DNA of 64,000 nt from Pyrenophora tritici-repentis (lineage: Eukaryota; Ascomycota; Dothideomycetes; Pleosporales; Pleosporaceae): contig NC_089395.1 in assembly GCF_003171515.1 (NCBI RefSeq), positions 2,604,001 to 2,668,000 of the forward strand. The letters are read 5' to 3'. Shown here in pieces: positions 4,310-43,019 of this stretch. A program made the position numbers and the translations under genes. Every line of letters starts with the position of its first letter. Positions within the stretch are counted from its first letter, which is position 1. Below the pieces are notes generated by a model that was given only the letters and a program-made list of their open reading frames with translations, searched no databases and had not been told where the DNA came from.

Positions 4310-5453
4310 GTTATCAAGATTATTTCAATCCAATGTCTGAAGAACTTGCAACGCTGTGTGCTAGTATAATCCTCTACTAAATACGTAAAACTAGAATTAT
4401 AATACATAACTATCCCATACGTTTTATGGCATCTGGGTTTACGTGTGTTTAGTGGGTACCAGGTGAGGGTTTATTGGTATGGCGTTGTATTGGAGGTTTT
4501 ACGATATCTAGATGTGCTTTGTTGCGCGTGTATGAATGAGGTAGTGGTATGGTTTGCATGGTGTGTGGTTCTGTGAGGAGGTTTGTGTGTGGGAAAACTT
4601 GGTGGGTTGGATTGAGGTTGGAAGATAGTGTCTGAGAGGTGGAAGGGCTGGATGCTGGACGTTGTGCCCAGGTACTTTGTGTGGTTTGATTTGGTGACTC
4701 ATGTTTTGAGGTTGAGGTATATACTGCGCTGCAATTTGGGTACCTGGGTTGGTGTGCACGTGCTGAGGAGATTGAGGAATTTTTATTTCCCGTTCTTTTG
4801 TTAGACAGGTGTAGTTTGAGAGTGTGTGTTTGGTTGGAGGGACAGTGGGGAGATGTGTTGTGCAGTGGTTGAGCTTTTGTCATAGTATATGGGGTTGCGG
4901 GTGTGGTGCGGTTTGAAATGCAAGTGTGAATGCAAGAGTTGATGAATTCCGACGATGATTATGTGTGTGGGGTTTGAGTTGAGCGTGAATCAAACAGTTA
5001 GTGGAACTCACACATCACACATCACGAGGAGCATTGAAAAGAGCGAGTTTACAAAGAATGATACAATTGCAGACTGCATTAACTGGGGTATCGGGTGTAA
5101 GCAGTGAAAAAGAGAAAAGTCAACGCAAAACACCTGAAAACCAAAAAAGAACCCCCCAAAATCCCAATCTTGGATCATCCGCCAGCAATACTGTTGAGAG
5201 ATGAGAATACCAAGTGTGCAGTCAAAGAAAGGTATTGAATATAAGCCAGTCTCACACATGCCTCCGTGTAGCCGTGTGGCGCGTTCAAAAACGGCACTGC
5301 CGTTCTGATCGCCCAAGGAAGGAAACGAAGCAGGGGAAAAACTTTTCTGTACCCAAAGAAGAAACCAGCACAACAGATCCGAAGCTTGGAAAATCAAATA
5401 GTAAGTGTTCCCCAATGCAACCTGCATTCACCACAGGGATATGAGCGTCGAAA

Positions 5454-38112: not shown

Positions 38113-39014
38113 TAACGTACCTCACGGCTTCGCCGGTCACTTTTGCCAAGCCCCCACCAAAACTACCTTTCTACGTGATGCCTCAACAACAACACCAGAT
38201 GAACTCTTCTAACGAACGTCAGATACAGCTTGCTCTTCAGGCTCTTAAAGACGACGCGACACTGTCTCAGCGACGCGCTGCAGGTATCTATAATGTCTCT
38301 CAAACAACACTAAGCGATCGACGCGCTAGACGACCCTCACAAGCAGATCGCTAGTCTAAATTAAGGAATTTAGACAAGCTTGAAGAGGAGGTAATTGTGG
38401 AGCATATACTTGAGCTTGTCGCGCGAGGATTTCCTCCCAGGCTCGCGGCTGTGGCTAATATAGCCAATTCCTTACGCGCTGAGCGCAATATAGGCCAGGT
38501 TAGCGTAAACTAGCCTAGTACGTTCATCAAACGCCGCCCTAAGCTTAAAGTAAGGTTTAATCGCAAATACGACTACAAAAGAGCTCTCTGCGAGGATCCT
38601 AAGGTTATATAAGGCTAGTTCGGCCTAGTAGCTAATATTAAAGCTAAGTATGGTATCTAGGATAAAGATACGTTTAACTTCGACGAGGCTAGCTTCGTAG
38701 TAGGCTAGATATTAACTAGAGCCGTTGTTATAGCTTTAGAGAGACGAGGACAGCTAAAGGTAGTGCAGCAAGGCAACAGAGAGTAGACGACAGTTATCTA
38801 GGGCATCAACGCGACAGGGTGGGCTATTCTACCCTTCATTATCTTTAAGGGCCGCCATCACCTCTCTGCCTAGTATAAGGAGGTGTCAGAATATGGGCAT
38901 ATTTTGGGTGGTGGACAAAATCCGGGTGTTCGGAGCTGTGGATTCTTGTCAGATAATAGCACTGTTGAAGATGAGAGCGTACAGACGCTGGGTTAGACTA
39001 CGCTGGCAAATGGG

Positions 39015-39150
39015 TCGGGGTGTGGTTGGGGTTGGGTTAGAAATTTTGCGACCCCAACCCAACCCCAACCCATTTGTCAGCGCCAAGCTTAGGGTTGGGT
39101 TGGGGTTGGGTTGGGGTCGCACGGACCATGGGTTAGGGTTGGGTTATAGT
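39015..39150 (+). repeat. Subterminal telomere-like tract, left
   Basis: Runs of GGGTT, GGGTTA and GGGTTGGGGTT, with TTAGGG present (TTAGGGTTGGGTT). A GCACGGACCATGGGTTAGGG unit matches, inverted, the units at the right end. Confidence 0.8.
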
Positions 39151-39310
39151 AAAAAAATTGCAAGATGTATAATATAGATTTCAATAAAAGAAAAGTTTAT
39201 ATAGTATCACAGTAGATTAACACAGTGTAGCATTAACTAGTTTCATTTATAATATACAGAGGCTTCGCCAGCTAGCATTTAAGCACGTGTATCTAGATAT
39301 ATCTTATAAT

Positions 39311-39883
39311 CTAGAGAAAAGCTAGTAACTCGCGCGCAAAGTAGCGCCTAGCCAATTGAGAATCCTTCTCTTGAATAGTAACCCTCTTTGCGTGAATAGC
39401 ATTGATGTTGCAGTCTATAAAAGTTATTAAATGAAAAATAGTATAGGGTAGATAGACTATACCCTCAAAATAACCAACTAAGAAAGCTTCTGTAGCTTCC
39501 TGAAGAGCTTCGATTGCAGATCGTTGAAAGCGGATATCGGCCTTGTGCACCTGTGCAAATTCGCGCACTACGCGGGAAAAGGGGAGTTTTCGCAAGAGTA
39601 GTTCAAAACCTCTCTGGTATCTCTTGATTTCCCGTAATGCGACAGCTAAGCTAAATTAGAAAATAGCTGTGATAAACGACTGTGATAACCTACTGCCGGC
39701 CTTAAACTTGCGCTTCTTCTTAACAGCTACAGGTGCCTTTCGCGTAGACTTTCCTGCTACTTGACGTCTAGCCTTACTAGCAAGGGCCTTCTGAGCCGGC
39801 TTGCCGCCAGTAACTGTCTTGCCATCAGGACCACCCCGGCCGGCTTTACCGGTGACCTTAGGCCGTGGTTTTGTCCTTGCCAT
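39311..39883 (-). CDS. Histone H3-like protein inside a transposon
   Basis: A complete open gene on the minus strand: exons 39883-39694, 39645-39463 and 39414-39311, with two 48-nt GT-AG introns; 158 aa against 136 for ordinary H3. The N-terminus keeps MARTK. An 18-residue expansion precedes [16 protein letters not shown], which parallels H3 TGGKAPRKQLASKAAR. The histone fold is intact: [60 protein letters not shown] and [20 protein letters not shown]. Loop 1 has canonical length, so this is not of CenH3 type. The C-terminus is replaced by [11 protein letters not shown]. It lies within a hAT element and shares intron sequence with the divergent gene. Conservation of the frame suggests selection or recent capture. 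Confidence 0.9.
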
Positions 39884-40393
39884 TGCGTAGTAGAGTAGAT
39901 GATGAACGTAGGCGACGTATGTGATTAATTACTGTGATAAATGTGGTCGACAATTAAGAAAGTAGTAGGCTGAAAGAGTTAGGTAGCTGGAAAGTTTGGG
40001 CGACGGCAATTTCCCGATTTCCGCACTAGTAAAGGCAGCAGCGCACGGACTGCATGACGTAATTTGCTGTTTCACGATCGCATACAACCATTTCTGTTGC
40101 AAAATCAGTAGCGAGCATATCATACAAACGTGTTAAACTGCTGTGATAAACGCCGAGCTCGCGCATGCGTACAGCCCAAAAATGAAGGAATCATCGATGT
40201 GTTGATCATTTTGGGTAATTTCCGCGTTTTCGCGCTAGCGCAGGCAGCAGCGCACGGACCATTTCTAGGTGAGCATAATGCTGTCTACCCATTTCTCCAG
40301 CCCCTGACGCCCAGTAACTCCCAACACCTAATAACTCTCTTTACTACATTGAAAACACCCCATTTACAACAGCGCATTATCACAGTCCCCGCC
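39884..40393. promoter_or_regulatory. Divergent promoter inside the hAT element
   Basis: 510 bp between the two cargo genes. It carries extra copies of the TTTATCACAG-type motif also seen in the introns (near 39931 and 40140, on the minus strand) and two related blocks containing CGCACGGAC and TTTC(G/C)CGATTTCCGC-type sequence (about 40000-40055 and 40215-40260). Confidence 0.45.
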
Positions 40394-41315
40394 ATGCCTG
40401 TCGCGAAAGAGCAAGTCGGCGACGTACCTGAAGGCCTAGTTCCAGCCATCAAACTTGAACCTCCGCCTGGGTTCGAACAAGATGAGTGGGAGCAGCTTAC
40501 CGATGTAATAATCACAGCCATTTATCACAGCTTATGCTAATATAAGCAGGGATTTGCGTGTGAAGCTGACGAGATTGACGGTATCTTAGATCAAAGAGGT
40601 AGTGGGGGTTCACGAAAAGGCCGACCTATCAATTTGAGCGTCCCCTATACTGGCTCTCTGAGTGGTAGCGCCCGTGCTATTGCTCAACGTGAACGCAAAG
40701 CTCTTTTCGATAAAGAGGAGAAGGTACTTGAAAGCGTTAGAACAGCCGACCGCTCCGCGAAGTACCAACTGAAGAAATCGCTTTTGCAACAGCCTAAGTA
40801 TAAATTAGCAAATAGTGCTAGACAGGCTAAGCTGCTAGAGAAAGAGTGGGATATACTTTCAGAGAAGCGGTTTACCCAGAAAAAGTCTGGTAAGTTATCA
40901 CAGCTGTTTATCATAGACATCTGCTAATAGACTATCCCAAGTGGCGAAGGATATACTAGCAATACCAATTGCTCAGGTTGGGGTTGAAAGAGTTTTCAAT
41001 GTTGCTAAGGATGTTATTGGTAGTCGGAGGCACCGACTATCTGCCCGGACAATACAGCAGATAATGGTTCTTAAGGATACAATATCTCAAGAGGAAGAAC
41101 AGGGTCTAGACTACCTAGTTGCTCAATTAGGGGAGGATGGAGAGCCAATTGACGAGGTTAATGATCTTTTTGAGCTTCCAGCCTCGTTAGAGCATACCTT
41201 CGATATAGATGAGGAGAACCAGACTACAGAAGAAGAGTCGGAGGAAGAGGTCCAGGAGGAGCGTCAATTGCCACCTCGAAAGCGCCAGCGTCCTCAGCGC
41301 TACCGTGATAATTAG
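40394..41315 (+). CDS. Protein with hAT C-terminal dimerisation domain
   Basis: Exons 40394-40504, 40547-40889 and 40942-41315, joined across 42-nt and 52-nt introns in frame; about 275 aa. The N-terminal half is unrelated to known transposase cores: PEGLVPAIKLEPPPGFEQDE, an AT-hook-like SRKGRPINL, then a charged helical stretch. The C-terminal half is a clear hAT family dimerisation domain (AKDILAIPIAQVGVERVFNV, SRRHRLSARTIQQIMVLKD), followed by an acidic tail and KRQRPQRYR. The catalytic domain is absent: an internally deleted transposase or a new fusion. It might help recruit a full transposase or act as a DNA-binding partner (inference). Confidence 0.7.
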
Positions 41316-41409
41316 CTGTGTTAATATATCTCGTTTTATGTATCTACTATATCATCAACGTGTACACATTATCTTAATTAAGTGTTGTTCCGTTAAAGTA
41401 CCCAAAAAA

Positions 41410-41580
41410 TATAACCCAACCCCAACCCAACCCAACCCAACCCAAGCCCAACCCTACCACTTGGTCTGTGCGACCCCAGCCCAGCCCTAACCCATGGTCT
41501 GTGCGACCCCAACCCAACCCTAACCCATGGTCTGTGCGACCCCAACCCAACCCCAACCCAAGACTGGGTATACCCAACCC
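41410..41580 (+). repeat. Subterminal telomere-like tract, right
   Basis: CCCAACCC and CCCTAACCC runs containing three copies of CCATGGTCTGTGCGACCCC-type units (the first degenerate), the inverted counterpart of the left tract. Together they give the element G-rich/C-rich symmetrical ends. Confidence 0.8.
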
Positions 41581-43019
41581 ATTTGCCAGCGTAGGTTAGA
41601 CTAGCGCGACCCGGCATCTGAGAGAGCCAATCGGATCACAGGAAGGCTTGGCACCCCCTAGGTGTGCCCACAACCGTAGACAGAACCAACACACAATCAA
41701 CAATCAATATCATCACCATTATTACCTATTTCATCAGTATTCCAGATGAGAGTGAATATCTGACAATTCTGTGGATCAGTTAAATTAGTCAGCGCGCACA
41801 ATCCACCGCGACCCAACTGATCGAACAGCGTTGGACAAGAACAGAACACGACATCAGACCAGAACAATACAATCGATCCCCATCATATTATTATACTATT
41901 ATCCCCGTCTTTGATAACCCATCACAATCTGACAGGAGGAGGCTCTGCCTTAGGACTAGGTTATTGCAGTCTCTAAGGACGGCTAGACAACAAACGAGCT
42001 TAGTCTACAGTAGTTAAAGCACTTTAATAAGTATACAAAGAAGAGGGTAGTTAGCAGCCACTAACTACTTGTAATTAACGGCTATAAGAGCTACAACTCG
42101 CTTACATTCTAGCGATACTGCAAGGAGAACAAGATTATTACTATCTACATGCCTCCTCACTCGTCGCACGTCCTGCAGCCTCTTAATGTGGGTTGTTTTG
42201 CCCCTTTAAAGAAGGCGTACGGGCGCTAAGCCGAAGATCTTATGCGCAACTAGATTACCTACATTACAAAGCTTGAGTTCCTACTATGCTTTATGCGCGC
42301 CTATAATACAGCAATTACTCCTACTAATATCTAAGGAGGGTTTCGAGGCGCTAGGTTAGTCCTATTTAACCCAGAACGGGTCACAACAGCCCTTGACGTT
42401 CAATTGCGTACTCTATTACTACTACTACCTATTAACAACGAGCCCTAGCAGTCGCAAACCCCAAGCAATACCCTTGAATTAGGGTCGCAATCGACGCTTA
42501 TAAAGGCAAGGATTTAGAGGCATGTAGATAGCTCACCAACGTCTTTAGTGGAGGCCTTTGAGAAGGTCTCGAAGGGGGCAGCGATTATCGCGCATAAGCT
42601 AGTGTTAGCGCAAAAGGAGATCGCAGAGCTTCGAGCGGCGAATAAGGCTGCCACGCGACGTAGGTCGTATAAAAGGAAGCGGATTCAGGCAGAAGGGACC
42701 TTAATAGTTGAGGATAGGGCTCGTCTAGCTACTCTAAAGGAGTCTGGGGCGCGTAGTAATAGGAAGAAGCCAAAGACGCGGGTGAGCGCTAAAGGAGGTG
42801 AGCCAACTTAAAGGCGCTGTAGGCGCTGCAATCAGCCTAGGCATAACGCGCGTACGTGTAAGCAAGCAGTAGAAGTAGACTCTGAATGATATCGCATGTT
42901 GCATTGTCCTATACAGGGCTAAAGTGGGCTGTTCTGCGCCAGAATGGGGTGGTTTTGGTGGGGGCTTGGCAAAAGTGACCGGCCAAGCCGTGTGACCGGC
43001 GAAGCCGTGAGGTACGTTA

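Follow-up and report, generated by a model that had tools for sequence, protein, structure and literature searches.

An intact histone H3-like gene in a hAT transposon of Pyrenophora tritici-repentis, possibly from an older Pleosporales H3 lineage without K9

Why a DNA transposon should carry a complete histone gene, and whether that histone is used or simply carried along, is the question raised by a 2595-bp hAT element at positions 38999-41593 of the 64,000-nucleotide stretch of Pyrenophora tritici-repentis DNA analysed here (the window). The feature is the short form of the H3L hAT transposon of this species and is already in print. In the passages of Manning et al. 2013 (PMC3538342) that concern it, the element is named 'H3L' and described in a form of about 5.6 kb and a short chimeric form; recombination at GACTAT gives an in-frame chimera, and 26 near-identical H3L genes are counted. 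The window element and the other copies in the genome agree with this description in species, TIRs, H3L gene, hAT dimerisation domain and a long form with transposase and central ORF, and the TIR-bounded H3-like gene, the central gene and the GACTAT chimera were all recovered. An earlier note on this stretch had mentioned transduplicated H3 sequences in Pyrenophora transposons, and this was correct.

The perfect 17-bp terminal inverted repeats (TIRs) are exact matches of one 17-mer on opposite strands of the 64-kb window (Table 1); when up to three mismatches are allowed, 3 matches are found in the window against 0.15 expected. The 8-bp target-site duplication of a hAT element, GGTTAGAC, lies on either flank, and identical 8-bp flanks are present in 21 of the 31 TIR-bounded stretches of the window's assembly. 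As an empty-site query, both flanks were joined without the element into 400 bases (40 of 250 candidates scored). Of the 48 listed genome matches, 45 cross the joined flanks, most with 97-100% identity over about 216 bases. The insertion in the window is therefore real and precise, and the TIRs and duplication reported in the earlier note were confirmed. Just inside both element ends, telomere-like GGGTTGGG/GGGTTAGGG repeats occur, mutually inverted. These subterminal repeats are the site of length differences in two short copies (L024, L029).

Table 1. Features of the H3L element and its insertion site (window positions; a dot denotes no strand)
Feature	Position	Strand	Remarks
LTR-like repeat of about 216 bp, insertion target	38947..38998 (left part), 41602-41765 (right part)	.	
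Target-site duplication, left	38991..38998	.	GGTTAGAC
Terminal inverted repeat, left	38999..39015	+	exact 17-mer
Telomere-like subterminal repeats, left	39018..39150	.	GGGTT(A/G)GG-rich
H3L gene, 158 aa	39311..39883	-	exons 39883-39694, 39645-39463, 39414-39311; spliced frame open
H3L intron 2, 48 nt	39415..39462	-	without TTATCACAG motif
H3L intron 1, 48 nt	39646..39693	-	two TTATCACAG sites 13 bp apart (39667-39688)
TTATCACAG sites between the two genes	39932..40385		39932-39940 (-), 40141-40149 (-), 40377-40385 (+)
Chimeric gene, 274-275 aa	40394..41315	+	central-gene N-terminus and hAT dimerisation C-terminus; introns about 40505-40549 and 40890-40941, both with TTATCACAG
TTATCACAG sites in chimeric-gene introns	40522-40530, 40895-40903		
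GACTAT, short-form deletion junction	40930..40935	.	long-form element positions 1932-1937 = 5210-5215; site named also in passages of PMC3538342
Subterminal repeats, right	41404..41561	.	CCCAACCC-rich; inverted relative to the left ones
Terminal inverted repeat, right	41577..41593	-	exact 17-mer
Target-site duplication, right	41594..41601	.	GGTTAGAC

Two 'histone H3' cluster representatives of P. tritici-repentis in the sequence database, both of 158 aa, fit the splice model of H3L with one residue differing in each, and the window protein matches P. tritici-repentis protein entries at 99%. An H3-type histone fold is recognised on sequence: the Pfam Histone family (PF00125) is matched at E = 9.4e-32 and the best PDB matches are H3. 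The single-chain structure model is poor (mean pLDDT 53), and the fold call rests on sequence. Loop 1 is as long as in canonical H3, whereas in this genome's CenH3-like protein it is longer by three residues. A CenH3 identity for H3L was rejected, as loop 1 is not longer and a supported branch separates H3L from this genome's CenH3-like protein. The canonical H3 tail ARTKQTARKSTGGK is not retained; K9-S10 are lost and 13 residues have been inserted. The earlier note's description of the gene was borne out: the H3-like gene is intact and lies within a hAT element (open three-exon frame, PF00125, PF05699, TIRs), it has two 48-nt introns (open spliced frame, database proteins of the same length), and its product has a longer tail and a new C-terminus and is not a CenH3.

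The window copy belongs to the short, non-autonomous form, which has no complete transposase. The long elements measure 5840-5882 bp. In addition to H3L they contain a second (central) gene, whose four exons encode about 354 aa, and a third gene, for an 848-aa transposase with the hAT dimerisation domain. In the short form the DNA that separates long-form positions 1937 and 5210 is missing, with the six-base overlap GACTAT at the junction, and this deletion fuses the N-terminus of the central protein in frame to the C-terminus of the transposase. The hAT C-terminal dimerisation domain (PF05699) is found in the chimera at E=1.6e-7 and in the long-form transposase at E=2.4e-20. In the database model of the chimeric gene (P0128), intron 1 ends three bases later than in our model. 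Lacking a full transposase, the window copy therefore needs one from elsewhere, and it would be mobilised by the transposase of a long copy.

The central protein (L030) is without a recognised domain; its C-terminus is acidic, and FEGF(S/P) is found near the end in five of eight aligned proteins (two of the remaining three are cut short). Its first member had no Pfam match above the cut-off, another member matched Elongin A in Pfam at E = 0.0032, and the PDB sequence search returned none below E = 0.8. The structure model has a mean pLDDT of 65, its tail is not resolved, and Foldseek gave none below E = 3.7. A function as histone chaperone was considered and found unsupported by Pfam, PDB and Foldseek, the acidic C-terminus being the sole hint.

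The family survey covered all 31 TIR-bounded stretches of the window's assembly, in which the exact TIR occurs 31 times per orientation; a PF00125 search of the same assembly gave 41 matches. The stretches hold 33 H3L copies, in contrast to the 26 in the passages of Manning et al. 2013 (PMC3538342). There are 11 in long elements and 22 in short ones; of the latter, 15 belong to simple elements, two inverted pairs account for four, and three belong to elements that carry insertions. The frame is open in 30 of the 33. Nineteen copies, the window's among them, are identical, and 11 have one substitution, which is synonymous in eight and missense in three. A one-base deletion is found in two more, of which one is additionally split by an insertion, and the H3L of one long copy (L018) has 21 differences and has lost its start codon. 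Among the 11 long elements the H3L frame is open in nine and the longer first transposase exon in five, a comparison uncorrected for the difference in length. The genome search for TIR and H3 frame proposed in the earlier note recovered these 33 copies, and the dN/dS analysis proposed with it was uninformative because the copies are too alike.

This uniformity permits a reading in which H3L is passive cargo: an H3 was captured a single time and has since been carried passively, with a recent burst accounting for its intact state and its unneeded tail left to drift. As 19 of the 33 copies are identical and all but three of the rest are one substitution away, a recent burst alone explains the intact frames; the 22 short copies, all with H3L, share one common deletion and so provide no independent tests of upkeep. 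Drift is also suggested in the passages of Manning et al. (PMC3538342). Passive cargo is a real possibility, though less likely than not.

The H3-type genes found outside the elements in this genome are the canonical H3 beside H4 and one CenH3-like gene. No H3L lies outside these elements among the copies listed in this genome, and H3L as a separate host gene of this genome was rejected, since every listed copy is inside elements. Two of the stretches (L040 on C7 and L047 on C18) each contain two short elements, inverted, about 750 bp apart and with the same flanks; the C7 locus may thus have been assembled twice, the second time as the pair on C18. On C2, C4, C5, C6 and C8, seven 134-bp stretches (e.g. 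G000:C5:244071-244204) are bounded by TIR forms with one or two mismatches, mostly TACGCTGGTAAATGGGT. They probably represent a MITE that arose from the H3L hAT or was mobilised by it, and for two of them an H3L element is no more than about 1.2 kb away.

The long copy L018 (G000:C1:7525620-7531700) has a RIP pattern. Compared to L030 it has 284 substitutions, of which 230 are C-to-T or G-to-A, and 182 of these 230 are at CpA/TpG. The other ten long copies are off the majority at 3-52 alignment columns, the larger cases mostly reflecting insertions and deletions. At least one complete element with H3L has thus been RIP-mutated, and H3L therefore gives no full protection. This copy contradicts the strong form of the idea that its own histone lets the element evade RIP.

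Relatives of H3L were sought by protein search, from which rows were picked by eye. Among the best 120 of 7917 matches, H3L-like proteins were found in P. teres, Paraphoma chrysanthemicola (a partial protein), Alternaria alternata and Massariosphaeria phaeospora. In a tree built on the histone-fold columns of 17 rows, the window H3L and these four relatives (five species, four genera) are separated from the other rows by a branch supported at 98/96; the end branches are long, above all that of Alternaria. C110N and L130Y are common to all five proteins, and Y41 has become F or W. When the five H3L proteins were used in a profile search, no new H3L relative appeared among the best 120 of 7990 matches, which were mostly long proteins of 180-290 aa with canonical H3 domains, and further relatives may exist beyond these matches. 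The branch and the shared residues support the placement of H3L in an older, fast-evolving Pleosporales lineage of H3 variants, as opposed to a fresh random capture.

Two consecutive locus tags of P. teres 0-1 belong to the H3L protein (CFE70_001393) and to a homologue of the central protein (CFE70_001394), and the longest contig is 5,608,903 bases for both. Judged in P. teres by locus tags and longest contig, this supports a location of H3L beside the element's second gene in both Pyrenophora species seen. The pair would then predate the split of the two species, or have moved between them. The branch of the relatives and the P. teres gene pair thus point to a recent burst of an older gene lineage. 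The central protein has homologues in four other named species; those of Bipolaris sorokiniana, Exserohilum turcica and Parastagonospora nodorum are 38-46% identical to it.

It is conceivable, if somewhat doubtful, that H3L was once an ordinary, non-mobile minor H3 variant of the Pleosporales, taken up by a hAT in a Pyrenophora ancestor and elsewhere still a host gene. Such an origin would suit the relatives in Alternaria (16 member sequences, 9 contigs), Paraphoma and Massariosphaeria, which are without a shown transposon context, and the central-gene homologues of Bipolaris, Exserohilum and Parastagonospora, which have no H3L partner among the best 120 of 7917 matches. However, the confinement of the listed H3L copies of this genome to elements speaks against it, and the fast divergence resembles mobile DNA more than a host H3.

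How the protein has diverged can be read from its comparison to the canonical H3 of the same genome. H3L is identical to it at 62 of 92 fold positions and at 21 of 44 aligned tail positions, and at 56 of the 83 residues shared among the 136 aligned the codons differ. The dN is 0.43, NG86 gave no dS because the synonymous sites are saturated, and fourfold sites are different in 30 of 38 cases. Set against a neutral expectation of 51% fourfold differences, this yields P = 4e-4 by our own rough arithmetic, which assumes equal synonymous change on both branches and is weakened because third-position GC differs strongly between the two genes (0.46 vs 0.81). Sites at which canonical H3 and CenH3 agree are preferentially retained in four of the five H3L proteins (Fisher p 0.0001-0.0004; for Massariosphaeria p = 0.1). 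Of the residues which we take to be DNA or H3-H3 contacts, R49, R53, K64, R69, R72, R83, K115-T118, D123, L126 and R129 are kept in all five proteins and S86, C110 and L130 are changed in all five; R63 is replaced by L in two (P. teres, Alternaria) and H113 by Y in one (P0054, P. teres). K56 and K79 vary.

Passive cargo fits poorly with a histone fold kept over a deeper divergence in which synonymous sites are saturated, with the preferential retention, in four of five lineages, of positions common to H3 and CenH3, and with the common C-terminal features that the H3L group has of its own. The preferred explanation, to which we give an even chance, is that H3L is a used, nucleosome-competent H3 variant kept by the element. 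In favour of a used protein are the old divergence with a kept fold, the relatives in other genera and the ESTs for H3L in the passages of Manning et al. (PMC3538342), where it is also considered that aberrant nucleosomes could alter chromatin. An alternative is that the transcripts matter and not the protein, many H3-like RNAs interfering with host H3 or titrating its regulators. With codons differing at most shared residues, little RNA identity is left for small-RNA cross-talk, and this alternative is considered very improbable.

The tail was numbered back from the TGGK block common to the five H3L proteins, which was equated with T11-K14. On this numbering both K9 (T, L, A, A, P) and S10 (V, V, T, R, A) are replaced in all five, and TGGK, including K14, is kept in all five. 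The canonical ARKS is the site used by H3K9 methyltransferases. In the pairwise alignment with canonical H3, K9 falls on V in the window protein and a lysine is adjacent (RPKVT), so that a methylatable neighbour is possible. In the five-row alignment, 10 of the 16 positions of the tail stretch 11-26 are invariant. Most tail positions outside it vary, as passive cargo would have it, and the loss of K9 can be explained by relaxed evolution of an unused tail; the conservation of 11-26 is not explained in this way. It was hypothesised that H3L is acetylatable at K14 and not methylatable at K9.

Most probably the H3L protein is made and able to enter nucleosomes with H4, as the kept fold and the retention of most of the presumed contact residues suggest. 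Nucleosomes with H3L would be poor substrates for H3K9 methylation, K9-S10 being gone and K14 and the neighbouring lysines kept. That such K9-poor nucleosomes favour expression of the element's copies is a further and rather unlikely step. Still less probable is the full scenario, that of a hAT lineage with its own anti-silencing H3 without K9-S10, kept across genera together with the acidic-tailed second protein as a possible deposition factor, whose new copies would resist H3K9 methylation. The rival explanations overlap, and the degrees of confidence need not sum to one. The interpretation in the earlier note, a mobile element that supplies its own nucleosome component, is thus partly supported: the intact H3 gene in a hAT and its distinction from CenH3 stand, and the strong form of RIP escape does not. 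If the H3L lineage is truly old, constrained and K9-less, it would represent a transposon-encoded histone acting on host silencing, and the view of H3L in P. tritici-repentis as merely a recent capture would be revised.

The intron of the canonical H3 gene interrupts it between Q19 and L20, and those of H3L lie at T45 and D106. The motif TTATCACAG (reverse CTGTGATAA) recurs in the element's introns and between its genes, also throughout the long form (L030/L022). A sense-strand TTATCACAG-like site is present in six of seven element introns, vs a mean of 0.07 introns in shuffles. With at most one mismatch, 21 matches are found in L022 vs 1.8 expected, and seven of the eight exact matches in the window are inside the element. 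All seven pairs that lie on one strand within 40 bp have a spacing of exactly 13 bp; of 106 such paired sites in the genome, all but one (105) are in the 31 TIR-bounded stretches. As the motif is found in element introns and its pairs are almost confined to the element, H3L intron 1 looks gained inside the element. CTGTGATAA contains a GATA-type core, and TTATCACAG is perhaps a transposase or host-factor site. At G000:C2:4952392-4954085, a 99% alike transposase piece and a motif pair occur outside TIR-bounded elements, with no H3L listed there.

With respect to earlier work, the altered histone seems to be of greater age and wider distribution than had been assumed, with K9 absent. The passages of Manning et al. 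(PMC3538342) that concern H3L contain neither the RIP-mutated copy nor the intron motif, and neither the occurrence of relatives in other genera nor their common loss of K9. For the relatives, the K9 loss and the intron motif, no publication was found in searches of the open-licence literature; in PMC4994206 the terms for an H3 element occur in the reference list only. The closest parallel is found in Dhillon et al. 2019 (PMC6710886), whose passages on H3 describe H3-carrying hAT elements in Pseudocercospora fijiensis and relatives. There, too, a hAT amplifies an H3-derived sequence and makes 8-bp duplications. Unlike H3L, however, the Pseudocercospora copies are intron-less and RIP-inactivated bar the original, and the elements measure about 9.5 kb (PMC6710886). 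The authors found no similarity between the hAT sequences and call the P. tritici-repentis event recent and independent (PMC6710886); the relatives, the P. teres gene pair and the tree suggest an H3L gene lineage older than the burst. CenH3 (CENP-A) resembles H3L in being a divergent H3 with a variable tail, but H3L is without the longer loop 1, and in the tree a supported branch stands between it and the CenH3-like protein of this genome. In the Pack-type capture by plant MULEs, cellular sequence is placed between the TIRs of a DNA transposon. The H3L element likewise has cellular sequence between its TIRs. Unlike in Pack-MULEs, which are mentioned in passages of Dhillon et al. 2019 (PMC6710886), the sequence in question is a complete gene with its own introns, and it is present also in the transposase-bearing long form.
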